Shown: positions 11,730-64,000 of the stretch, piece by piece
Layout: each line of letters begins with the position of its first letter
Position numbering within the stretch: the first letter of the stretch is position 1
NCBI GenBank assembly: GCA_025451235.1
Contig: JANWKT010000014.1
Location: forward strand, 248,001 to 312,000
Reading direction: 5' to 3'
Length of the DNA stretch: 64,000 nucleotides
Source of the DNA: Flavobacteriales bacterium
GTDB taxonomy: Bacteria; Bacteroidota; Bacteroidia; CAIKAF01
The notes under the pieces: model-generated
The model's database searches: none
Told to the model about the DNA's origin: nothing
The model's input: the letters and a program-made list of their open reading frames with translations, nothing else
Translations under genes and position numbers: made by a program

Positions 11730-11806
11730 ATACTCATTATTTTATGCAGTATTCTCACTCAAAATAGCGTTTTGCTCAGAAAATAAATTTGAATTTTATT
11801 TTTTTT
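11730..11806. repeat. Array of 21-bp phased direct repeats upstream of STAS-like gene pair
   Basis: Degenerate units start at 11730 (ATACTCATTATTTTAT), 11751 (ATTCTCACTCAAAATA) and 11772 (TTGCTCAGAAAATAA), exactly 21 bp apart. A weak fourth unit, AT-rich with the CTCA lost, starts at 11793. The shared core is ATnCTCAnnnAAAAT. The array ends about 25 bp before the ATG at 11833. The same word with the same period occurs at 51914, upstream of an unrelated gene, so it is best read as a multi-site regulator-binding region. Confidence 0.7.
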
Positions 11807-11832
11807 TAACTTTCTGATATAAACACTATGAA

Positions 11833-12300
11833 ATGGTTTCTTCGGCACCCAATAATAACGAAATACCGTCCTCATTCAAGATCGTTTACCAGGTACCCTT
11901 TAAGACTATGTACTTAAATGATGGTACCAGCACTATTATTACTATTTGGAATTCGAATTCAGCAGAGATTTCGGATGACGACTATAAGAGAGATGCGGAA
12001 GATACTGTTCAGTTGATCCGAGATTCACATGCACACTATATGATCAGTGATCATCGGGAGAATAAATTCAATATATCACCCGATCTGCAGAAATGGTACT
12101 CCAACCTGATCGCCCAGGTATTAGGTAAAAGTAATTTTGAAAAATGTGCAGTGATCATTACTTCTGATTTAAATTTATTGAGTGCCTTGGAGGAGATAAG
12201 AGAGAATCTTACTGAGCTTGGTGACGAAGTAAAGATCTCATATAGGTTCTTCGCTGACTACAAGGAAGCAGAAAAGTGGATACACGGCAAAGCCGGATAA
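11833..12300 (+). CDS. STAS/SpoIIAA-like domain protein, copy 1
   Basis: The 155-residue cytoplasmic protein has no signal peptide. It matches the layout of a widespread Bacteroidota STAS-like family: an N-terminal strand pair with an IWNSNSAEIS segment, a central SDHREN, a PDLQKWYSNLI helix, a CAVIITSDL strand and a C-terminal YKEAEKWI helix. Copy 2 follows 28 bp later. STAS-like domains generally bind nucleotides or partner proteins; the specific role is not known. The 21-bp repeat array just upstream suggests regulated expression. Confidence 0.78.
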   Translation: MVSSAPNNNEIPSSFKIVYQVPFKTMYLNDGTSTIITIWNSNSAEISDDDYKRDAEDTVQLIRDSHAHYMISDHRENKFNISPDLQKWYSNLIAQVLGKSNFEKCAVIITSDLNLLSALEEIRENLTELGDEVKISYRFFADYKEAEKWIHGKAG

Positions 12301-12328: not shown

Positions 12329-12775
12329 ATGGTTGATCAATATGTTATTCCGCATGAATTTAAACTGGTTTACCAGGTTGACTTTAAAGATGTGTATTTA
12401 AATGAGAGATCAAAAACAATATTGATCATCTGGAATTCGAACTCGGCCTATTTATCACCGGAGACCTATAGAGAAGATGTTCTCCATAATATTGAATTAT
12501 TCAAGGAAAATGGAGCTGTTTATTGGGTAAGTGATTACCGTCAAAATAAATTTAAAATAACCGATGATCTCCAGTACTGGTATGTGAATGAAATTGCAGA
12601 AAAACTGGAGGACCTTGGTTTGAGAAAAACGGCCGTTATAATAGATGCTGATTTGAGCATGTTGGGATCGCTAGAAGAAATTTCCGCCCGATTGTTAAAG
12701 GAAAGAGGAGTCCATAAAATCCCACATAGATTTTTTCCCACCATCGATGAAGCCTTTAAATGGGTAAATAGATAA
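12329..12775 (+). CDS. STAS/SpoIIAA-like domain protein, copy 2
   Basis: The 148-residue paralogue of the gene just upstream aligns with it along its full length: [18 protein letters not shown] against FKIVYQVPFKTMYLNDGT, the shared [17 protein letters not shown] against SDHRENKFNI, and a matching DLQ-W-Y helix. The pair arose by tandem duplication and lies in one operon behind a single regulatory array. The most conserved segments are the predicted helix cap and the surface strand. No catalytic residues are recognised. Confidence 0.78.
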
Positions 12776-19692: not shown

Positions 19693-22600
19693 ATGAATAC
19701 ACTTTACACCTACCCAAAGTGCGTAAAATCCATTCGTGGATTTTATGCTTTATCCAAGCCAATCAAAATATTTTCATCCTTTTACAAAAGCATTATTCTA
19801 TTGGCAACCATAGGTTTATTGCCATTGACCGGCTTTGCTCAAATGGTGGGTCCCAGTTGCTATGTCAAGGGCACCTATGTTGAATATGGGGTAAATGGAG
19901 CCGGAGGTTTTGAGGGAATATTTACCGGTGTAAGTCCTGTACCTGCAGGAATGCACTTTAGGTCAGGGAATCCCATATTTGGATTTGTGGCAAATCCTCA
20001 GGCCAATGGATGGGCCACTTTTGACGGAGATTATTTTACACCCGGTTCACCTGAGAATGGATGGGGGATTGAAATTATCAACGGTGCTACCAATTTATTG
20101 GCCAGCAATAATTGTCAGGATGCTTATTTTGGAGGAATCAATGGGATCCCGGGAGCTATTACCAGTTACCAGGTAATTGGCAGTTGCAGAATTGTAAGAT
20201 GGGATGGTGATTATATCAACGGTGCTTACAATGTGCATGTTCGGCTAGATTATATTTTAAATGTTAACGATCTTTATTATACAACCGTGGTAACGCTTAC
20301 CAACAATGGAATAAGCATACCCGATTTTTATTATTATAGAAATTTCGATCCGGACAATAATCAATCCGCACCTGGTGGAGAATTCCCCACTACTAATACA
20401 GTCATGAGTCAGCCAGGTTCAGGTTGCAACAAAGCACACGTACGGGCTACTTCCACATTACCTGCTTCACAACCTTTATCGTATGTTGGTTTGGCGGGTG
20501 TTGGTGCAAATTTCAGGGCATGTTACGGAGGTTTCTCCAATCGTGATGGTTCAGATCTTTGGAACGGGATCGGATTTACCCAGGCAACCGCAACGCCTAT
20601 GTACGCTGATATAGCCATTGCGTTGGCTTACAGGGTTCAAAATTTTAATGCAGGCAATACTGAATCATTCCGGTTTGTTGTGATCCTGGATGATGTAGCC
20701 GCTAACAATGCGATCAACAATTTATTTTCTATGACATGGCCGGGTGCGCCACCCAGCAGTTCTACTGCTTGTAATCCGGTAGTGGATACCGTTACTATTT
20801 GTAATGGAGGTTCCACTACCATTTCTGTTACCGGATCTGCGGTATCAGATTTTACTTGGAGCTGGTCGCCAACAATAGGTTTAAGTCCTACCGTTGGAGC
20901 AACCGTTACAGCATCTCCTACGGTTAATACATTATATACTGTAACCGGAGCCCCTATTAATCCTTGCTTCAATCCGGTTACTCAACAAATTTATGTGAAA
21001 GTTGTACCTGGGACTACCAATGCAAATGCAGGCACCAACCGGGTTCTTACATGTACCACACTTACTGCGGTGTTGGGAGGTTCAACAACTACGCCTGGTT
21101 CCACCTATAGTTGGGCTGGGCCAGGAATCGTCTCGGGTGGAACTACCTTAACACCCACCGTGAATGCCCCTGGAGTTTATACACTCACTGTTACGGCAGG
21201 AGGATGTTCGGCTTCGGATACGATGTCGGTTATACTCAATAATACTCCACCAAACGCAAATGCAGGACCAGATCGGGTGATCACTTGTTCTACCCCGGTG
21301 GTTACTTTTGCAGGTTCATCTACAACACCCGGAGTAACCTATGCATGGTCGGGTCCGGGAATTACTGGAGGTGCAACTACTGCAACACCAACAGCGAATG
21401 CTGCAGGAAACTATACGGTTACTATCACCAATCCGGCAAATGGATGCACTGCAACAGATGTGGCAGTGGTTACGGTGAACAATACCCCACCGAATGCAAA
21501 TGCCGGATTGGATCAAACATTAACTTGTGCAATAACATCCCTCAATCTTTCAGGATCATCATCAACGGGCGGAGTTACCTGTGCATGGACGGGTCCTGGA
21601 ATTACAGCAGGCGGAACTACATGGACCCCCGCTGTAAACGCTCCAGGAAACTATACAGTAACCGTAACAAATCCAGCGAATGGATGTACATCAACAGATG
21701 TGGTTGTGGTGAATTTAAACAACACTCCACCAAATGCAAATGCAGGACCTGATCGCGTTATTACGTGTACAACACCGGTGGTTACTTTTGCCGGATCATC
21801 TACCACACCGGGAGTAACCTATGCATGGTCGGGACCCGGAATTACTGGTGGTGCAACTACTGCGACACCAACAGCGAATGCTGCAGGAAACTATACGGTA
21901 ACGGTTACTAATCCTGCGAATGGATGTACTGCAACCGACGTGGCAGTTGTTACTGTAAATACTACTCCTCCGAATGCAAATGCAGGATTGGATCAAACCA
22001 TTACATGTACTACACCAACACTCAATCTTTCAGGATCGTCATCAACGGGTGGAGTTACTTGCGCATGGACAGGCCCTGGAATTACTGCCGGTGGAACCAC
22101 CTGGACTCCAACTGTAAATGCTGGAGGGAGCTATACCGTAACTGTAACCAATCCTGCAAATGGATGTACTTCGACAGATGTTGTCGTGGTTAACTTAAAC
22201 AATACTCCACCCAATTCGAATGCTGGTTTAGATCAAACGCTTACTTGTCTTATCACATCATTAAACTTATCAGGATCATCTTCTACACCGGGTGTGAATT
22301 ATAATTGGACAGGACCTGGAATTACCGCAGGTGGAACCACAACAACGCCGACTGTAAATGCTGGAGGAACCTATACAATTACAGTAACCAATCCAGCCAA
22401 TGGATGTACATCTACCGATATGGTAGTAGTAAATGTGAACAATACTCCACCGAATGCGAATGCAGGTCCGGATCAGAATTTAACCTGTGCGGTTAGTTCG
22501 TTGAATCTTTCCGGTTCATCTTCTACTCCGGGAGCTACTTTTAGTTGGGGTGGACCAGGAATTACTGCAGGAGGAACTACAGCAACACCTACCGTGAATG

Positions 22601-25600
22601 TAGCCGGAACTTATACGTTAACGGTAACAAATCCAAGTAATGGATGTACTGCAACGGATATGGTAGTGGTAAACGGAAGTGCAACGATTCCAAATTCAAA
22701 TGCAGGTCCTGACCAAACTTTAACATGTGCTATCACGTCATTGAATTTATCCGGATCTTCTACAACCCCAAGTGTAACTTATGGATGGACAGGCCCGGGA
22801 ATTACAGCCGGTGGCACAACCGCTACTCCTACCGTAAATGCTCCCGGAACATATACCGTAACTGTAACGAGTACGGCAAGTGGTTGCACGTCTACGGACA
22901 TAGTGGTAGTCAATCAAAATATTACTCCACCGAATGCAAACGCAGGACCGGACCAGGTATTGAATTGCGTGATTACCTCCGTGAATTTATCAGGATCATC
23001 CACCACAGGTGGAATTACCTATTCATGGGCTGGACCAGGAATTACTGCAGGAGGAACGACCTCCACACCAACGGTGAACGCAGCCGGACCTTATACAGTA
23101 ACTATTACTGATCCAACTAATGGATGTACTTCAACAGATATTACAAATGTTACATTGAATAATACATTACCGAATGCGAATGCAGGTTTAGATCAGACAT
23201 TGACTTGTGTTGTAACCTCGTTGAATTTATCCGGATCTTCTACTACAGGTGGTGTAACTTATGCATGGGCTGGGCCGGCTATTACTGCAGGAGGAACTAC
23301 AAATACACCAACAGTAAATGGTGCGGGAACCTATACAGTAACCATTACAGATCCCAGCAATGGATGTACAAATACTGATCAGGTTGTAGTGAATTTAAAT
23401 AACACCCCTCCGAATGCGAATGCAGGTCCGGATGATATTTTAAATTGTACCATTACTTCCATTAACCTTGCAGGTTCATCTACCACAGGTGGAGCAACGT
23501 ATGCATGGGGAGGACCTGCCATTACCGCAGGAGGAACTACAGCAACACCTACTGTAAATGGTGCAGGAACTTATACAGTAACTGTTACCGATCCGATCAA
23601 TGGATGTACAAGTACAGATCAAATGGTAGTTACGCTGAATGCAACATTGCCAAATGCAAATGCAGGACCAGACGCTATTTTAAATTGTAGCATCACCGCA
23701 TTAAATCTTGCAGGATCTTCTACAACCGGTGGAGTAACTTATGCGTGGAGCGGACCAGGAATCACCGGTGGAGGAACTACTCCAACACCTAACATCAATG
23801 CTCCGGGCACATATATTGTAACCGTTACCAACCCAAGCAATGGATGTACAAGTACAGATGTCGTGAACGTAACCCAAAATATTACTCCACCAAATGCAAA
23901 TGCAGGTCCTGACCAAATACTTAATTGCGTAATCACTGCATTGAATTTATCCGGATCATCTACTACAGGAGGAGTTACCTATGCATGGAGCGGACCAGGA
24001 ATTACCGGCGGAGGAACTACTTCAACACCCAATGTAAATGCTCCAGGAACATATATGGTAACTATTACTGATCCAGGAAATGGATGTACTTCCACAGATC
24101 AGACAGATGTTACTTTAAATAATACACCGCCCAATGCTAATGCAGGTCCGGATGATATATTGAATTGTGTGATTACTTCTGTTAACCTTGCTGGTTCATC
24201 AACCACGGGTGGTGTTACCTATGCATGGGGAGGACCTGCCATTACAAGCGGTGGTGCAACATCCACACCAACGGTGAATGGTCCGGGAACTTATACAGTA
24301 ACCATTACTGATCCGATCAATGGTTGTACATCCACCGATATGGTAGTGGTTAATTTGAACAATACGATTCCGAATGCAAATGCTGGACCTGATGACATAT
24401 TAAATTGTGTGATCACTTCCATTAATCTTGCAGGTTCCTCTACAACAGGTGGAGTAACATATGCATGGGGTGGTCCTGCCATTACAAGCGGAGGTGCAAC
24501 ATCCACACCAACTGTAAATGGTGCAGGAACTTATACGGTAACTATTACCGATCCAATCAATGGTTGTACAAATACCGATCAGATCGTTGTTACCTTAAAT
24601 GCCACCTTGCCGAATGTAAGTGCAGGACCGGATGATATTCTCAATTGTAGCATCACTGCATTAAATCTTAACGGATCTTCCACTACTGGTGGTGTAACCT
24701 ATGCATGGACCGGACCCGGAATTACCGGTGGTGGAACTACTTCAACACCGAATATCAATGCTCCCGGAACCTATATTGTAACAGTTACCGATCCATCCAA
24801 CGGATGTACCAATACAGATGTAGTGGATGTAGCTCAAAATATTGTTGCTCCTAGTATAAATGCAGGATTAGATGATGTGCTGAATTGCTTGGTACTCGAT
24901 CTGAATCTGAATGGCAGCTCCACCACTGCAGGTGTTAGTTATGTTTGGGCAGGACCCAGCATAACATCTGGTGCTAATACCAATACTCCTAATGTAAATG
25001 GACCAGGTTCGTATACGGTAACCGTTACTGATCCGGCAAATGGTTGTACCAGTACGGATGTGGTTGACATTGCATTGAACAATACAATCCCCAATTTAGC
25101 CATGGGAGCCAACCAAAATATCTTATGTAATACACCAATGGTAAATGTAACCGGTAATTCTTCTACTCCTGGAGTTACTTATGTATGGTCGGGTCCAGGT
25201 TTAGTAGGAGGTTATGGTAGTTCAGTGGCAACAGCAAATACTGCAGGTACCTATTCAGTAACGGTTACTGATCCGGTGAACGGTTGTACAGCAAGCGGAA
25301 CGGTGGATGTTATTTTAGATCTGAATATTCCATCAGCCAATTTCCTTGCAGATAATTTATCAAGCTGTGCACCTTTATGCGCCACATTAACCGACCAGAG
25401 TTTGGTGAACGGTTCTCCGATTGTTGGTTGGAATTGGGTAGTGGAAGGGATTGGAACATCCAATGCTACGGGTGGTACCTTCTGTTTTACTGATCCCGGA
25501 ACTTATGATGTTACCCTAACCGTTACTACCGCTGACGGCTGTACATCCACTTTAAATATTCCGAATTATTTAACGGTTCATGCGAATCCGGTGGCAGATT

Positions 25601-30694: not shown

Positions 30695-30787
30695 AGTCGT
30701 TATTGTTTTTTGGTTAGTAAAACAAAATTATATTTGATCATTTTTTTTGCCTTATTTTTTGCACATAATACTCTTTTGGTGAAAAAA

Positions 30788-34734: not shown

Positions 34735-37700
34735 ATGGTGAAAGCAAAGTTAACCCTAATGCTCTGCGGTTTATCCTTATTGACCGCACTACATGCCCAA
34801 CAACCTGTTTATCAATTAAGCGATGGAGGTACTCCCTGGGCATATAAATTTACCCAGTATGACAGTGAAGTCCCGATCATGGATATGGGAATAGTGGATG
34901 TGAATGCGCTAAACGCCGAGGATGCTGTGAATGACCTGCAGAAAGACAATGCCTGGAGATTCGGTTATAACCATTTTGTAAGTCACAATCTGAATAATTC
35001 AGGCGCTTGGAAAACATTGGATAATGGTGACAAGATTTGGAGGATTGGTTATACTTGCCCGGGAGCTATTACGATCAATTTGGCATTTCAATATTTATCC
35101 ATGCCTAGTGAAGCGAAATTATTTATTTATAATGAAGATAAAACCATCACCTTGGGTGCATTTACCCAACAATATGTTTCACCTGATCTGCAGTTCGGAA
35201 CAGAATTAATACCCGGAGAAACGGTTTTTGTTGAATATTATGTTCCTGCTTCAGCACCGAATGTAGGGAGCCTGGAAATTTTCAGGGTAACGCATGGATA
35301 TAGAAGTACTACTCCTTATGTGGAAAGAGCATTTGGAAGTTCAGGTGCATGTGAAAACAATGCACGTTGCTTTCCAGCTTATGATAATAATATTCGTTCG
35401 GTGGTGATGTTGGTATCCGGCGGCGCAGGTTTTTGTACCGGTGCATTGATCAATAATACATGTAATGATGGAACACCTTATGTATTGACTGCGAATCATT
35501 GTGGTTCTGCAACTGGATCTTGGGTTTTTAGATTTAATTGGGAAGCTCCCACCTGTACACAGCCAGGATCAAGTCCGAGTTTTGTATCCCTTACAGGCGG
35601 AACTGCACGTGCATCCAACTCAGGCTCCGACATGCATTTATGCCAAATAAATACTGCCATACCTGCCGGGTATGCAGCCTATTTTTCAGGATGGGATAGA
35701 AATAATACAGCTGCTACCAATCCATATGGAATTCATCATCCTGCAGGAGATATCAAAAAAATTAGTTTTACAACAGGAACCGCCATCAGTATTGCAAGCA
35801 TAGATGTAGGGAATGGTCCGGCCACTTGCTGGCAAACTCCTACCTGGACCGATGGTGTAACCGAAGGTGGTTCATCAGGTTCTCCACTTTTTAATTCAAG
35901 CGGCCAAATTATCGGACAACTATATGGAGGTCCTTCCAATTGCGGATGTGAGGGAAACGCCGGTTGTGGATATGATTATTATGGAAAATTATATACTTCA
36001 TGGACTGGAGGAGGAACCAATGCTACACGTTTAAGTAACTGGTTAGCACCAGCGGGTTGTGGAGCAGCACCTACCACTTTGGTAGGTTATGATCCGAATA
36101 CTCCTTCGTTAGCTTATGATGCCCAGGTACAAACCATCACTTCTCCATCAGGAACATTATGTACAGGAAGTCATTTACCTGTGATCACGATTAGAAATAA
36201 TGGAACCACCACTTTAACTTCGATGACCATCAATTACCAAATTGATGGAGGAGCGGCAACACCTTATGCATGGTCAGGAAGTTTAGCAACCGGAGCCAGT
36301 ACAAATGTTACCATGCCATCAATAACCATTGCAGCAGGTGCACATACCTACACTGCAACAATTGTTACTGCCAGTTTAAATGGAGCACAATCGGATCAGA
36401 ATACAGCCAACAATGCATTGACCTCTAATTATACTGGAACTGGTGGTGTAGGAGTTTCACTTCCATTTACCGAAGGGTTTGAGAATGTTACTTTCCCACC
36501 CACTAACTGGACCAATGAGAATCCTAATAACAATGTAGGAAGTGCTCTTTGGGTAAGGACTACTACGGCCAGTGGTTATGGTGGATCCACTGCTTCAGCG
36601 TTGATCGATCAATTTTCACCTGGAGCTACTACTGCGGGTCAATTGGATAACCTAATCACTCCATCGCTGAATCTTACCACGCAGGGTACACCCATCAATC
36701 TTACTTTTAGCGTGGCGAATGCAAGATACAATGCAACACTTTATGATTCGTTGATCGTTTGGATCAGCACTACCTGTGGAGCCACCTGGACAAGATTGGC
36801 CTCCTATGGAAATAACAGCGGACCGAACCAACTCACCACTGCACCGGATATTACTTCCTTGTTTGACCCAACCAATGCACAATGGGCAACGAAAACAATT
36901 AGTTTAAATTCATATGCATCTCAAACGTCCGCTCAGATCCGTTTTCAATTGAGAAGCGGCTGGGGTAATGCCACCTATATTGATGATGTAAATATAAGCG
37001 GTGCTCCATTGGCACCGCCGGTCGCATCTTTTACCCTTAGCGATAATACGATATGTGCCGGGCAAACGGTTACATACACGAATACATCCAGCGGTGCTAC
37101 GTCATTCAACTGGACTTTCCCCGGAGGTGCACCTGGGTTGGGAAGCACGAGTCCGATCAATGTTACTTACGTTACACCGGGCACATATACCACCACATTA
37201 ACAGCCACTAATATCAATGGATCTAATACAAGTACGCAAACCATTACAGTAAGTGCAAATCCAACCAACACCGCTTCCAACGGTGGACCTTATTGTGCAG
37301 GAGCAACCATTCAGTTGAATGCAACTGCCGGAGCAACCGATTATGATTGGATAGGCCCGAACAGTTATGCTCAAAACAATATGCAGAATCCCTCGTTTGG
37401 GCCTTCAACAACTCTTATGGGTGGAGTGTATACGGTTACCGTAACCAATGCAGCCGGTTGCACAGCAACCGCATCAACTACGGTTACCGTAAATGCCATT
37501 CCAACTGCGAATGCAACCAATGGTGGACCTTATTGTGTGGGAACAACCATCCAGTTAAATTCTGTAGGTGGATCTGCAACGGACGATTGGGCTGGTCCTA
37601 GCTATGCACAAAATAATGTGCAGAACCCCACCATTTCGGGAGCAACTTTAGGTATGGCTGGTGCTTATACCGTAACGGTTACCGGAGCAGGTGGTTGTAC

Positions 37701-39126
37701 ATCTACCTCTTCAACTACGGTTGTAGTAAATGCAAACCCAACTGCGAATGCAACCAATGGTGGACCTTATTGTTCAGGTGCCAGCATTCAATTAAATTCG
37801 GTGGGTGGTTCAGCAACGGATGATTGGAGCGGTCCGAATAGTTATTCTCAAAACGATCTACAAAATCCAAGTATCCCATCTTCAACAGTGGCCATGGGTG
37901 GAACTTATACCGTTACGGTTACCAATGGATCAGGTTGTACCGCTACCGCAACTACATCCGTAGTGGTGAATGCAACTCCGGCAGCAGCGGCATCCAATAC
38001 AGGACCTTATTGTCCGGGTACCACGATCCAGTTGAACTCTTCTGGTGGATCCGGGTATTCATGGGTAGGACCTTCCTCCTTTAGTGATGGAACTCAAAAT
38101 CCAACTATTCCATCATGTACAGTTGCGAATGACGGTGTTTATACAGTTACTGTAACCAGTGGAAGTTGCTCCTCAACCGCAACCACCATCGTAACGGTTG
38201 CCAATACTAGTTCAGCTACCGCAAATAATACCGGTGCTTATTGCGAAGGGGAAACGATCGACTTAAATACAATTGCCGGAGGAACCAATTATGCATGGAC
38301 AGGTCCAAATAGTTTTTCTGCGTCTATTCAAAATCCAACCATTCCTTCTTCCACACTTGCCATGAATGGTGTATATGATGTTACCGTAACTTTTGTGGGG
38401 GGATGTACTTCTTCTGCCACTACAACGGTGGTTGTAAATCCAAATCCATCAGCCCCGGTTATTACACCTAGCGGTGCTACCACTTTTTGTTCTGGTAATA
38501 GTGTTACACTTACTTCCTCCTATCCAAGTGGAAATACATGGAGCACAACAGAAACAACAGCGACGATCAATGTAGTTTCCTCAGGTACCTATGTGGTTAC
38601 TTATACGGATGGAAATGGATGTACCAATACAGCTTCGCAATTGGTTACTGTGAACTCATTGCCTTCCGTTAGCCAAACGCCATTAGGAACTGTTTGCGTT
38701 ACCTATGCTCCGATCATCTTAACCGGTGGTTCACCAGCCGGTGGTACTTATAGCGGAACAGCAGTAAGTGGTGGACAGTTTGATCCGACTCTTGCCGGTG
38801 TGGGAACATTTAATATTACCTATACTTATACGGATGGAAACGGATGTACGAATAATACGGTAGCATCTATTGATGTTCTTCCTTGTTCTGGTATAGAGGG
38901 TAGCAAAGAGGAGGAAATAATTGTATACCCAAACCCAACAGACCAATATATCTATATTGCAGGATTGGAAAACGGAATCCATGATTATTCCATTACCAAT
39001 ACACTTGGTCAGGTGATCAGGGTTGGTAAGTTATCGGGTGATGGGATCATTGACCTGGGTATTGTTGCAACAGGAACTTATTACCTGAAGGTAGACAACC
39101 GTTATTGGAAGATCATCAAGAAATAA
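34735..39126 (+). CDS. T9SS-secreted trypsin-like serine protease with Ig-like repeats
   Basis: The 1463-residue exported protein has a signal peptide ending LHAQ. The chymotrypsin-fold protease domain (about 200-440) shows an intact triad: H255 in LTANHCG, D299 in SGSDMHLCQI and S381 in GGSSGSPLF, resembling lysyl endopeptidases and related S1/S46-like enzymes of Bacteroidota. A CARDB-like domain (about 455-560), a MAM/laminin-like domain (about 570-750) and a PKD domain (about 765-840) come next, then about six Ig-like repeats (ASNGGPYCAGATIQLN type, each with TVTVTN...CTATA), and a T9SS type A tail (VYPNPTDQYIYI). It is a surface or secreted endopeptidase; substrate preference is unknown. 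Confidence 0.9.
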   Translation: MVKAKLTLMLCGLSLLTALHAQQPVYQLSDGGTPWAYKFTQYDSEVPIMDMGIVDVNALNAEDAVNDLQKDNAWRFGYNHFVSHNLNNSGAWKTLDNGDKIWRIGYTCPGAITINLAFQYLSMPSEAKLFIYNEDKTITLGAFTQQYVSPDLQFGTELIPGETVFVEYYVPASAPNVGSLEIFRVTHGYRSTTPYVERAFGSSGACENNARCFPAYDNNIRSVVMLVSGGAGFCTGALINNTCNDGTPYVLTANHCGSATGSWVFRFNWEAPTCTQPGSSPSFVSLTGGTARASNSGSDMHLCQINTAIPAGYAAYFSGWDRNNTAATNPYGIHHPAGDIKKISFTTGTAISIASIDVGNGPATCWQTPTWTDGVTEGGSSGSPLFNSSGQIIGQLYGGPSNCGCEGNAGCGYDYYGKLYTSWTGGGTNATRLSNWLAPAGCGAAPTTLVGYDPNTPSLAYDAQVQTITSPSGTLCTGSHLPVITIRNNGTTTLTSMTINYQIDGGAATPYAWSGSLATGASTNVTMPSITIAAGAHTYTATIVTASLNGAQSDQNTANNALTSNYTGTGGVGVSLPFTEGFENVTFPPTNWTNENPNNNVGSALWVRTTTASGYGGSTASALIDQFSPGATTAGQLDNLITPSLNLTTQGTPINLTFSVANARYNATLYDSLIVWISTTCGATWTRLASYGNNSGPNQLTTAPDITSLFDPTNAQWATKTISLNSYASQTSAQIRFQLRSGWGNATYIDDVNISGAPLAPPVASFTLSDNTICAGQTVTYTNTSSGATSFNWTFPGGAPGLGSTSPINVTYVTPGTYTTTLTATNINGSNTSTQTITVSANPTNTASNGGPYCAGATIQLNATAGATDYDWIGPNSYAQNNMQNPSFGPSTTLMGGVYTVTVTNAAGCTATASTTVTVNAIPTANATNGGPYCVGTTIQLNSVGGSATDDWAGPSYAQNNVQNPTISGATLGMAGAYTVTVTGAGGCTSTSSTTVVVNANPTANATNGGPYCSGASIQLNSVGGSATDDWSGPNSYSQNDLQNPSIPSSTVAMGGTYTVTVTNGSGCTATATTSVVVNATPAAAASNTGPYCPGTTIQLNSSGGSGYSWVGPSSFSDGTQNPTIPSCTVANDGVYTVTVTSGSCSSTATTIVTVANTSSATANNTGAYCEGETIDLNTIAGGTNYAWTGPNSFSASIQNPTIPSSTLAMNGVYDVTVTFVGGCTSSATTTVVVNPNPSAPVITPSGATTFCSGNSVTLTSSYPSGNTWSTTETTATINVVSSGTYVVTYTDGNGCTNTASQLVTVNSLPSVSQTPLGTVCVTYAPIILTGGSPAGGTYSGTAVSGGQFDPTLAGVGTFNITYTYTDGNGCTNNTVASIDVLPCSGIEGSKEEEIIVYPNPTDQYIYIAGLENGIHDYSITNTLGQVIRVGKLSGDGIIDLGIVATGTYYLKVDNRYWKIIKK
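37262..38450 (+). repeat. About six Ig-like coding repeats in the protease
   Basis: Units of about 75-83 codons each begin with a NGGPYC/NTGPYC or NNTGAYC motif and end with a GGCTSTSSTTV-like strand. They are more diverged and less uniform in length than the 240-bp array at 21249, so the two arrays expanded independently even though both have a cysteine at each end of the unit. Confidence 0.7.
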
Positions 39127-51913: not shown

Positions 51914-52065
51914 ATTCTCATTCAAAATAGACTAATTCTAGTCCATAATGATCGTATACTCATGTTCGATTTTAATTGTTAATTCTCGTCCATAATGTTT
52001 AAATTCTCATCAAAAATGCATTTTTACTCATTCAAAAGATATATATGCTCAAAAATATTCTTATT
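51914..52065. repeat. Array of 21-bp phased direct repeats upstream of DUF4476-like gene
   Basis: Units begin at 51914 (ATTCTCATTCAAAATA), 51935, 51956, then 51982, 52003, 52024 and 52045. The spacing is 21 bp apart from one 26-bp step in the middle. Consensus: ATTCTCATCCAAAATG; the last unit, next to the gene, starts ATGCTCA, as the last clear unit does at 11772. Gene starts lie at 52123 or 52162. This is the same word and period as at 11730, so it is probably a multi-site binding region for one regulator. The rest of the gap (51690-51913) holds only a palindrome at 51820. Confidence 0.78.
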
Positions 52066-52122: not shown

Positions 52123-52662
52123 ATGGAAGTTCTCCGTAAACTAGCATCAAATCACATGATTATGAAAACCAGAAATCTATCATTTTTAGGGAAATTGGCC
52201 AGGAATGGATTCGTAAAAGCATCCTTATTGGCCCTGCTAACAATAGTCCTGATGGCTATTCTCATGAACCTGGCTACCAATGTTGCATTTTCAAGTCCAC
52301 TGAACAACAATGGTTTAACTCCATCCTCCTTCTTATCGAGCAACGATAATTGCACCACTTCCCTGGATGCTGATCAATTCAAGGGCAAGTATGATTTTAT
52401 TGCCGGAAAGTATTTTGAAGAAACGCGGATCAAGCTTTCCTGGGAGCTGGTCGATAATTATTGTTTATCCTCCGTGCAGGTGAGAGACCTGATGAAATTG
52501 TTCTCTTACGATAGCACCCGAACCAAGTTTGCCACCTATGCCATAGGTAAAGTGCTTGACCCTGAAAATTTTACAGTTTGTAAGGAAACCTTTATGATCT
52601 ATGGAAACGATCGGGTGATTGATGACCTGGTGAAAGAATATCAATCCAGCATGAATAAATAA
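52123..52662 (+). CDS. Membrane-anchored DUF4476-like protein, 179 aa
   Basis: There is a short N-terminal cytoplasmic segment (residues 1-32), one membrane helix (about 33-55, rich in Leu/Ile/Ala), then a soluble domain of about 100 residues. The pattern VRDLMKLFSYDSTRTKFATY is typical of the DUF4476 family of Bacteroidota, a small helical domain of unknown function. A second ATG at 52162 is an alternative start; it would keep the membrane helix. Expression is likely controlled by the 21-bp repeat array upstream. A strong terminator follows at 52703. Confidence 0.78.
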   Translation: MEVLRKLASNHMIMKTRNLSFLGKLARNGFVKASLLALLTIVLMAILMNLATNVAFSSPLNNNGLTPSSFLSSNDNCTTSLDADQFKGKYDFIAGKYFEETRIKLSWELVDNYCLSSVQVRDLMKLFSYDSTRTKFATYAIGKVLDPENFTVCKETFMIYGNDRVIDDLVKEYQSSMNK

Positions 52663-60957: not shown

Positions 60958-61053
60958 GTCGACCGCTCATTTCCAACGGGTAAAGGATCAATTCTCTTTC
61001 TTGCTTCCAAACATTTGCTAATTTAGCTGAATATAAATTCGGGAGTGAGCAAT

Positions 61054-64000
61054 ATGCTGAATATTAGGTATACTATATTTCCAAATGTTAGGCGAGGGTT
61101 GATTATTTTCTTTGTCCTATTCCCATGTGCTTTATTTGGCCAGTATGCTTCCTTTATCAACTATAATTTAAACAGTGGATTACCTTCGAATACTGCTTAT
61201 TTTATTTTAAAAGATTCCAAAGGTTACTTATGGATTACTACCGATCGTGGTTTGGTAAAATATGATGGATACAGTTTTACTACTTATACTACTACCGATG
61301 GTGTATCAGATAATGAGATCTTTGAGGCATATGAAGACAGTAAAAAAAGAATATGGTTTTCCACCTTTAATGGAATACCCACTATTTACTCAGAGGGCAA
61401 ATTTTATAGTTTCGAATATTTATTTAAAAAATACGAAAGGGTAGCAACAGGCCCGTGCTACAGGATACTGGAGAAGGATAGCAGTCTTTGGTTCCTGAAC
61501 AGAAAGGCTATTTATAGAGTAACCAATAATAGGATCCATGCTTTCTCCGCCAAGAAGACCACCTTGTCTTCCATGGCCTATCATGAAGGATGGAAAAAAA
61601 TGTATTTTCTCAACTCATCGGTTAGTTGGGTCATTAGTATTGATGAAAATAACAAGTTGGATACAATTCCGATAAATATTTCTCCATCTACCAATATTTC
61701 AAAAGCCCTGATCAAGGATAACTTTTTGTACTATACCTCCTGGAAAAACTTTTGTGGTTGGGACCTGGAGCATAATACCGGATTTTCGGTGGAACTTGGA
61801 ACAGAGCTGTTGTCTATCCAGGATCCTAACAATGATACTACTTTGTTGATAGGTGCATCTAATGGCGTGTATGAATTCAATATTAAAAACCATTCCTGGA
61901 GGGAAAAATTCAGAGACCAACCAGGAATTTCATCCATATTCATTGATTCGGACCGATCTTACTGGACCACTTCACTCAATAGTGGGATCAGTTTTTTTGG
62001 TAATGAAAAGGTAGAAATATTAAATAATCGAAATGCTATCCCCTTTGAATATGTATCCCTGGTAAAAAAAATGGGGAACAGGCTTTTAATTGCGTCGGAT
62101 AAGTTCAGGTTTTGTATTTATAACTTGTCGACGAAAAAAGTGGAAGCGTATTTTGATGAAGCAGATAGGGTTCCCGGAAGAGGCTTTGCCAATAGCATGA
62201 GGAAGGCAACCAACGGAGATATATATGTAAGCTTTAGGGTTGTCTTGATAAAAATCGATAAGAACGGAAAGATTTCAAGAATAGGTTTGAAAGAGGTAAG
62301 CTATGACTTTATCTTTACACCTGATTATTATGTGGCGGTTCACGTAGATCAGATTTCCAGAAGAAAATCTTCAGAGTCCATTACAGGTTTAAGTGAAGAT
62401 TATGAGTCGATGGCTTTAACCGGCCGGCATTTGTTTTACGATTCAACCAATGCCCATATGTATGCATATGGAGCGAATGGATTATTTAAGGTGAATGTGG
62501 ACAGCTTTAACTATGTTACCAATTATTCTCATTATAAGCAGATATCCACGAACGTTTCAACAATGGCTAAGTTCAATGATAGTTTGTTGATCGTTGGAAG
62601 CACTCTGAGCGGTATCCATTTTTTAAAGAGAGATAAGATTATTGCCGGAATTGGTATTGATCAGGGATTATCATCAAATTATGTGAATTGTGTTTTTGTA
62701 GATGGGAATGAAGTTTGGATAGGAACAGATAAAGGAATCAATGTGCTTACGGTCGATTTAGTCAAGGCAAACATGAACATGTACCAGTTGGGCAAAAAAG
62801 ATGGGATCTTTAACAATGAGATCAATGATATCACCATTGAAAATGATACGGTATTTGTTGCGACGCCATCTGGACTCTTTTTCTTCCACCGGAACAACGT
62901 TAACCGAATAGTGGAAAAACCTACATTGAATATTGAATATGTTACAGTTAATTCGGAGAGTCTCGAATTGCAGGAGGAGTACCAATTAAATCCATATCAA
63001 AACAATGTAAAGGTGAAATTCACCGGGATTTCCTATAATGCACTGGGAAATATTGTGTATCGATATAAACTTACCCCTGCCGACGATCTATGGCATTATA
63101 CCACTTCCAGGGAAATTGAATATCCTTCTTTGTCGCCCAACGAATATACATTGGTGATCCAGTGTAAGGGAAACAGAGGAGGCTGGTCGGAGGTGAGGAA
63201 AATTAAGTTTGAGATTGCCCCTTCCTTCTGGCAACGGACTACTGTAAGGATCCTTTTCGTTATCCTATTCTTTGTAGTTATAGGACTTCTGGTGCGTATA
63301 AGGTTCAAGGCCATCAAAAAAGGCCATTTGATCAAAGAAAAACTTTTGAAACTCGAAAATGAAAAATTGGAGGACATCAAGAACCAGGCCATCAAGGATA
63401 AGGAACTGATTGAATTAGAGCAACAGGCATTAAGATTGCATATGAATCCCCACTTTATTTTCAATGCCATCAACGCCATTCAGGGATTTTATGCTGGAAA
63501 TGAGGTGAACAAAGCCAAACAGTTCATCAGCTATTTTTCCAAGTTGCTTAGAATGATACTCGAAACCTCTAAAGAAAAACTGGTTCCTGTAAGCACTGAG
63601 GTAGAGATCATTAAAAATTACCTGGAACTGTTTTTACTTCGATTTGAAGATAAATATTCTTATCATATCAAACTGGATCCGGATATTGATTCAGAAAGTA
63701 TTATGATACCACCCATGGTGGTTCAGCCGTTTGTTGAAAATGCTGTATTGCATGGGATCTCCCCTATGAAGACCAAGGGAGAGATCAATATTGATTTTGA
63801 GCTTGAAGAAGATGTACTTAAGATCAGCATCCGTGACAATGGAATAGGCCGGAAAAAATCAGAGGAACTTAAAATGTTCTCCAAATCAAAGTCAACAGGC
63901 ATCAAAGTAACCCAAATGAGGTTGAAGCATTTGAATGAACAGCTCAATGATGGGCACCTGGTAGAGATCATAGATCTGGAAGAAAAGGGTATTTCCATAG
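61054..64000 (+). CDS. Hybrid propeller sensor histidine kinase, LytS type, 3' truncated
   Basis: The frame runs from the ATG at 61054 to the window end without a stop (982 codons). Signal peptide to about residue 29. Residues about 30-600 are two-component-regulator propeller repeats (GYLWITTDRGLVKYDGYSF, RIWFSTFNGIP, VWIGTDKGINVL), then a Y_Y_Y-type domain (about 640-720), one membrane helix (about 733-750), a coiled linker, and a His_kinase (LytS/YehU) domain. The phosphoacceptor is H800 in LHMNPHFIFNAIN, and the N-box is VVQPFVENAVLHGI, the G-box DNGIGRKKS. Partners of such kinases are LytTR response regulators, normally encoded next to them; the gene would be beyond the right edge. Confidence 0.93.
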   Translation, partial: MLNIRYTIFPNVRRGLIIFFVLFPCALFGQYASFINYNLNSGLPSNTAYFILKDSKGYLWITTDRGLVKYDGYSFTTYTTTDGVSDNEIFEAYEDSKKRIWFSTFNGIPTIYSEGKFYSFEYLFKKYERVATGPCYRILEKDSSLWFLNRKAIYRVTNNRIHAFSAKKTTLSSMAYHEGWKKMYFLNSSVSWVISIDENNKLDTIPINISPSTNISKALIKDNFLYYTSWKNFCGWDLEHNTGFSVELGTELLSIQDPNNDTTLLIGASNGVYEFNIKNHSWREKFRDQPGISSIFIDSDRSYWTTSLNSGISFFGNEKVEILNNRNAIPFEYVSLVKKMGNRLLIASDKFRFCIYNLSTKKVEAYFDEADRVPGRGFANSMRKATNGDIYVSFRVVLIKIDKNGKISRIGLKEVSYDFIFTPDYYVAVHVDQISRRKSSESITGLSEDYESMALTGRHLFYDSTNAHMYAYGANGLFKVNVDSFNYVTNYSHYKQISTNVSTMAKFNDSLLIVGSTLSGIHFLKRDKIIAGIGIDQGLSSNYVNCVFVDGNEVWIGTDKGINVLTVDLVKANMNMYQLGKKDGIFNNEINDITIENDTVFVATPSGLFFFHRNNVNRIVEKPTLNIEYVTVNSESLELQEEYQLNPYQNNVKVKFTGISYNALGNIVYRYKLTPADDLWHYTTSREIEYPSLSPNEYTLVIQCKGNRGGWSEVRKIKFEIAPSFWQRTTVRILFVILFFVVIGLLVRIRFKAIKKGHLIKEKLLKLENEKLEDIKNQAIKDKELIELEQQALRLHMNPHFIFNAINAIQGFYAGNEVNKAKQFISYFSKLLRMILETSKEKLVPVSTEVEIIKNYLELFLLRFEDKYSYHIKLDPDIDSESIMIPPMVVQPFVENAVLHGISPMKTKGEINIDFELEEDVLKISIRDNGIGRKKSEELKMFSKSKSTGIKVTQMRLKHLNEQLNDGHLVEIIDLEEKGISI

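Follow-up and report, generated by a model that had tools for sequence, protein, structure and literature searches.

The two 21-bp repeat arrays of the window (the whole analysed stretch of 64,000 nucleotides), array A in front of a pair of STAS-like genes and array B in front of a DUF4476 gene, are probably tandem operators of a LytTR response regulator, for which the product of the gene at G000:C1:47940-48686 is the likeliest candidate; it would act as an activator at the adjoining promoters. At the level of sequence, this is supported by the arrays themselves, their period, the promoter spacing found at many sites, conservation and the link to one LytTR gene. The chances are about even for a wider reading, in which a single LytTR regulator acting through phased multi-unit arrays would govern an adjacent structured RNA, a second and unrelated small RNA in one genus, and secreted, envelope, SulP and STAS-like proteins, as a Bacteroidota counterpart of AgrA-RNAIII and FasA-FasX.

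Two Phased Arrays in the Window

In the 64-kb window, T.CTCA pairs occur four times at a spacing of 21 and at none of the other spacings from 15 to 31, and there are two T.CTCA triples, whereas 300 dinucleotide shuffles gave none. The 21-bp element which a sequence-only reading had noticed in both arrays is thus real. Both arrays are placed in intergenic gaps and oriented at the next gene (table 1). Array B has seven units in 21-bp steps throughout, except for the step from 51956 to 51982, which is 26 bp long. A step of this length, 21 bp and roughly half a turn more, can also be seen by eye in the C13 and C126 promoters (L238 and L237), upstream of the first unit.

The same reading had given ATnCTCA-AAAAT as the shared core. 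In array A, the AAAAT half can be made out clearly in just one unit, unit 2; unit 1 lacks it and in unit 3 it is shifted. It had also noted TGCTCA in the last unit of both arrays. This is correct for the two (at 11773 and 52046) but does not extend to a rule for the family that TGCTCA stands next to the gene, since in 36 units the second position of TNCTMA varies between A (26), G (6) and T (4). On the minus strand, a further candidate array at 30741 (score 14.5) was rejected, as it abuts a start codon and leaves no room for a promoter. Long protein-coding arrays of ~240-bp repeats, probably repeat domains of secreted proteins, are located at 21311-24819 and 37417-37955 of the window.

Table 1. 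Positions of the arrays, the genes they precede and the associated RNAs (window positions unless a contig or locus is named)
Feature	Position	Strand	Remarks
Array A, unit 1	11730..11750	+	ATACTCATTATTTTATGCAGT; pair score 19.6 (other-genome matrix)
Array A, unit 2	11751..11771	+	ATTCTCACTCAAAATAGCGTT; pair score 20.2; aligned unit in G001 TCCTAATTGAAA
Array A, unit 3 (promoter-proximal)	11772..11792	+	TTGCTCAGAAAATAAATTTGA; TGCTCAG identical in G001
Candidate Bacteroidota -7 box	11807..11814	+	TAACTTTC; 28 bp past the last TGCTCA of array A; predicted
First STAS-like gene, downstream of array A	11833..12300	+	AlphaFold model pLDDT 83.8
Second STAS-like gene	12329..12775	+	~47% identical to the first
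Array B, unit 1	51914..51934	+	ATTCTCATTCAAAATAGACTA
Array B, unit 2 (degenerate)	51935..51955	+	ATTCTAGTCCATAATGATCGT
Array B, unit 3	51956..51981	+	ATACTCATGTTCGATTTT; followed by the 26-bp step
Array B, unit 4	51982..52002	+	ATTCTCGTCCATAATGTTTAA
Array B, unit 5	52003..52023	+	ATTCTCATCAAAAATGCATTT; start of the best triple of the window
Array B, unit 6	52024..52044	+	TTACTCATTCAAAAGATATAT; best pair of the window
Array B, unit 7 (promoter-proximal)	52045..52065	+	ATGCTCAAAAATATTCTTATT; no convincing -7 box at 28-30 bp
DUF4476 gene, downstream of array B	52123..52662	+	Start at 52123 or 52162; PF14771, E 3.3e-11
SulP permease (array at promoter)	C19:56079		Conserved in G001 (C254)
Lipoprotein with CarboxypepD_reg-like domain (array at promoter)	C9:14064		Conserved in G001 (C8)
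Secreted-type protein (array at promoter)	C13:45217		Conserved in G001 (C126)
RNA (array at promoter)	C1:48705		Conserved in G001 (C146)
Candidate regulator gene	G000:C1:47940-48686		Response regulator; receiver E 1.5e-19, LytTR PF04397 E 7e-17
Undescribed structured RNA	G000:C1:48773-48924 (L176:2334-2481)		~150-190 nt, directly behind the LytTR gene; orthologues L177-L182
Second candidate RNA	L149:1570-1661, L151:1570-1663, L173:1571-1667, L243		TTGTTTTTGGCGAAT ... terminator; 21-bp array at promoter

Family Form of the Element and Its Distribution

From orthologous promoters, the family form of the element was determined as ATNCT[CA]A-YT-N-AAA in 21-bp steps. Patterns limited to TNCTCA with three mismatches were noisy and the motif was widened to CT[CA]A; a loose-triple scan of the genome of the window (G000) and of its single genus mate (G001) turned up more places resembling arrays, in which CTAA was found besides CTCA.

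A 16-bp matrix was trained on 17 arrays from other genomes only and was then applied to the window, where arrays A and B ranked at the top with pair scores of 23.1, 21.9, 20.2, 19.6 and 16.2 (maxima of shuffled 64-kb sequences: mean 12.2, one at 20.7). The triple scores were 31.6 for array B and 27.5 for array A, compared with 7.8 for the best site elsewhere in the window. A model built from arrays A and B alone (R1) retrieved these two and, weakly, the SulP array (E 0.076), with 150 of 2495 candidates scored. When no more than one mismatch was allowed, the composite pattern of repeats-N30-TAnnTTTG led to orthologous arrays in two of the family's genera. With two mismatches it was no better than the control (28 vs. 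46 in G000), so only near-exact or orthologous arrays count.

Six array promoters were found in the genome of the window, namely those of the STAS-like pair, the DUF4476 gene, a SulP permease, a lipoprotein, a secreted protein and an undescribed RNA, and five of them recur at the same genes in G001. The sequence-only reading had proposed that a matrix of the units be scanned over intergenic regions for scores above background. Both window arrays are far above background and arrays of the same type stand at other promoters of the genome. The matrix ranking, these other promoters and the conservation in G001 support the small undescribed regulon that it had suggested.

The conservation which it had expected in close relatives is evident for array A, which in G001 lies in the same place with its sequence shifted: unit 2 reads TCCTAATTGAAA, unit 3 retains TGCTCAG and unit 1 is degenerate. 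The gene behind array B has no close homologue in G001, which is 77% complete. At four orthologous promoters of the two genomes (SulP, lipoprotein, secreted protein and LytTR/sRNA), 44 of 45 core positions are identical, compared with 100 of the 148 remaining array positions. The comparison favours the core, as three of the four promoters were found by matching both genomes.

The STAS-like protein is 67% identical between G000 and G001. The AlphaFold model of the first STAS-like gene product, based on 11 sequences, has its best but weak fold matches with the STAS domains of RsbS, SpoIIAA and prestin (E 0.0065-0.046); this model replaced a single-sequence fold that was useless (pLDDT 44). The STAS-like genes have no Pfam match, and a protein scan of genome contigs with the STAS-like gene gave nothing. 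STAS-like homologues in G004, G008 and G012, which are not one-to-one orthologues, are preceded by units spaced by 21 bp and by a -7-like box at a gap of 30.

Promoter Geometry

At most promoters, the last unit is located 28 or 30 bp upstream of a TAnnTTTG box, the -7 element used by the housekeeping sigma factor of Bacteroidota (PMC7366714); at the orthologous promoters, this distance (28-30 bp) was first noted by eye. Nine arrays had been collected with no promoter term in the search, and five of them show a -7 box with at least 5/6 agreement at a gap of 28 or 30; shuffles gave a mean of 0.3 and never reached five in 5,000, with the two gaps having been picked after the data were seen. At this distance, the arrays would stand just upstream of the -35/-33 element, as LytTR operators do. 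A convincing -7 box is absent at array B and at the SulP array. In the case of array A, a possible -33 TTTG is found at 11788-11791, inside unit 3, and the G001 orthologue has TACATTTC at the same gap as the candidate -7 box.

All clear arrays are oriented towards their gene. In G008 and G010, the COX15/secreted-protein intergenic arrays point in opposite directions.

These features bear on whether the arrays have no regulatory role, as relics of neutral tandem repeats or members of a dispersed repeat family. Tandem arrays are common, and exact 21-bp minisatellites are present in the relatives, but here the cores are conserved against diverged spacers, the distance from unit to promoter is fixed and the clear arrays all point to their gene. 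Furthermore, Tandem Repeats Finder passed over the window arrays at score 40, as their units have no more than the core in common. A neutral origin is, consequently, highly improbable.

The Candidate Regulator

The array at C1:48684 begins right at the end of the gene for a LytTR response regulator, directly 3′ of it. The genome has 18 LytTR loci and this is the only one with an array: with a matrix that left out all regulator-adjacent arrays, its score was 20.8, whereas the next best among the other 17 loci was 11.5 (within 1.5 kb). The order regulator, array, promoter and RNA is found in all seven family genomes which have the regulator. The orthologue of G001 is 97% identical and those of G004, G008, G010, G011 and G013 are 63-67% identical. 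With 97% identity between the genus members, compared with 67% for the STAS-like protein, the regulator stands out as strongly constrained.

The neighbours of the regulator in G000 are genes for a metallo-beta-lactamase-fold protein, an M20 peptidase, a trypsin-like protein and a glycosyltransferase, with no sensor kinase or pheromone/signal-peptide gene adjoining it. In G011 and G013, the regulator, array and RNA are present, and further arrays were not found. A locus labelled Candidatus Competibacteraceae (L215, JACSSC010000059.1) contains a Bacteroidota regulator, array and RNA as in G004; its label or binning is probably wrong.

It is unlikely that the arrays are LytTR sites read by a different one of the 18 LytTR proteins, or by several of them. 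LytTR consensus sites are loosely defined, and a LytS-type sensor and a LytTR gene occur at the right end of the window. In addition, G012 keeps arrays, at an sRNA and at a STAS-like gene, with no match to the candidate at E<=1e-40, an absence that is ambiguous because this genome is a 96%-complete draft in ~340 contigs. On the other side, the remaining 17 LytTR loci are devoid of an array within 1.5 kb, their best score being well below that of the candidate. The gene at G000:C1 thus remains the preferred regulator.

The LytS-type sensor (Reg_prop, Y_Y_Y and His_kinase) occupies 61045-63999 of the window and runs off its end. The LytTR gene that comes after this sensor, at G000:C14:312573, has no array beside it.

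Sites of the AraC I1/I2 type also have a 21-bp period, are direct repeats next to the -35 element and overlap the promoter-proximal region. If the arrays were sites of an AraC-family protein, or of another protein with two HTH motifs, the neighbouring LytTR gene would be coincidental, and the bipartite unit (CTMA + AAA) would fit two recognition helices. Yet the LytTR response regulator is the only regulator gene that was found consistently beside an array (in seven genomes and in six of six database loci), and AraC dimers do not usually occupy as many as three to seven units; an AraC-type reader is therefore improbable, and binding by the LytTR protein is preferred.

A Predicted Structured RNA behind the Regulator and a Second Candidate RNA

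The RNA encoded behind the regulator, which is confined to this family, has a closing stem that covaries and a TTTCATAGTGGGAGG segment that is invariant. Its predicted transcript would start just after TACATTTG and carries GTTTTCATAGTGGGAGGAAACC, followed by the long closing stem, which in several genomes ends in a terminator-like T-run. In the alignment of seven sequences, 93.9% of the paired cells are standard pairs and five pairs change on both sides. When the partners are slid by 1-3 columns, pairing falls to 31-56%, a control that leans in favour of the structure, as the latter was derived from the same alignment.

No credible match to the RNA was obtained among 4227 Rfam families. Its covariance model found it in five of 295 genomes of the class, all of this family and all with the regulator. 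Similarly, a search of 84,980 species genomes for its 20-nt motif gave six loci, all of them directly 3′ of the regulator. The genes downstream differ between genera, so the RNA is not the leader of a single gene; it is predicted to be transcribed and regulatory.

A second array-driven candidate RNA, ~93 nt long and with a clear terminator, is found in genus g4 only, in all four sampled genomes, where it adjoins a protein-L-isoaspartate methyltransferase-like gene. The two RNAs have in common AAACTAACCTTAATGA (16 nt) in G008 (L181 and L243) and TAAACTAACCT in G004, perhaps a common target-pairing segment.

Proposed Mechanism

In the mechanism proposed here, one regulator monomer would bind each 21-bp unit and read the core TNCT[CA]A. 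As successive units are exactly two helical turns apart, the monomers would be loaded co-operatively on one face of the DNA. The last unit would abut the -33/-7 promoter (TNCTMA-N28/30-TAnnTTTG), so that the regulator, once bound, may bring in RNA polymerase or assist it; the position of the arrays by the promoter suggests that it activates and does not repress. The same regulator would switch on the small structured RNA encoded directly behind its own gene. The receiver domain implies that the regulator may be controlled by phosphorylation.

Comparison with Known LytTR Systems

Known LytTR sites are direct repeats of 9-11 nt with spacers of 11-13 nt (PMC4847170), operators can consist of three repeats 18-21 bp apart (PMC11347149), and the sites, acting as activators, typically lie ~10 bp upstream of the -35 element (PMC6193735). 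Direct repeats of ~9-11 bp with 10-13-bp spacers correspond to a period of 20-24, and the period of the arrays is exactly 21. By this comparison, the arrays fit known LytTR sites in spacing, repeat number and promoter position.

The site of Escherichia coli YpdB at yhjX, a GGCATTTCAT direct repeat, resembles the arrays in its two-turn period and its location upstream of the promoter, and its half-site has a TTCAT/CTCAT-like core as in the arrays (PMC4847170). On the other hand, yhjX has two sites only, compared with three to seven here, the half-site differs, and the promoters here are of the Bacteroidota sigma type. In the operators of CoxC and RcoM, too, direct repeats lie two turns (18-21 bp) apart, in a set of three beside the -35 element (PMC11347149), but CoxC is a repressor that senses CO by means of a fused MHYT domain, whereas the regulator here has a receiver domain and is probably an activator. 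HdrRM and BrsRM of Streptococcus mutans likewise use repeats separated by 12 bp and placed ~10 bp upstream of the -35 element (PMC6193735); they involve an inhibitory membrane protein and autoregulation, neither of which was seen here.

A further related arrangement is that of Staphylococcus aureus AgrA-RNAIII (PMC4227749) and Streptococcus pyogenes FasA-FasX (PMC12675982), in which a LytTR-type regulator drives an adjacent regulatory RNA from its sites, as is suggested here. An RNA gene beside the LytTR gene, with sites at its promoter, was found in 7/7 family genomes and 6/6 database loci. The locus contains no cognate sensor kinase or signal peptide, and it is therefore not classed as a member of the agr/fas type. 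It differs further in that the RNA has no sequence in common with a known family, several protein targets also carry arrays, and the organisms are Bacteroidota and not Bacillota.

A search of a library of open-access papers found none combining LytTR, Bacteroidetes, a regulon and a binding motif. The regulon is new and so, as far as the searched libraries show, is the RNA, whereas the kind of mechanism is already known. DNA sequence alone here links a motif and the geometry of its promoters to several targets, a candidate regulator and a co-inherited RNA, and the result is a testable operator with a candidate regulator-RNA pair. If the proposal is true, the pairing of a LytTR regulator with a regulatory RNA beside it, as in AgrA-RNAIII and FasA-FasX, would have recurred in another phylum.
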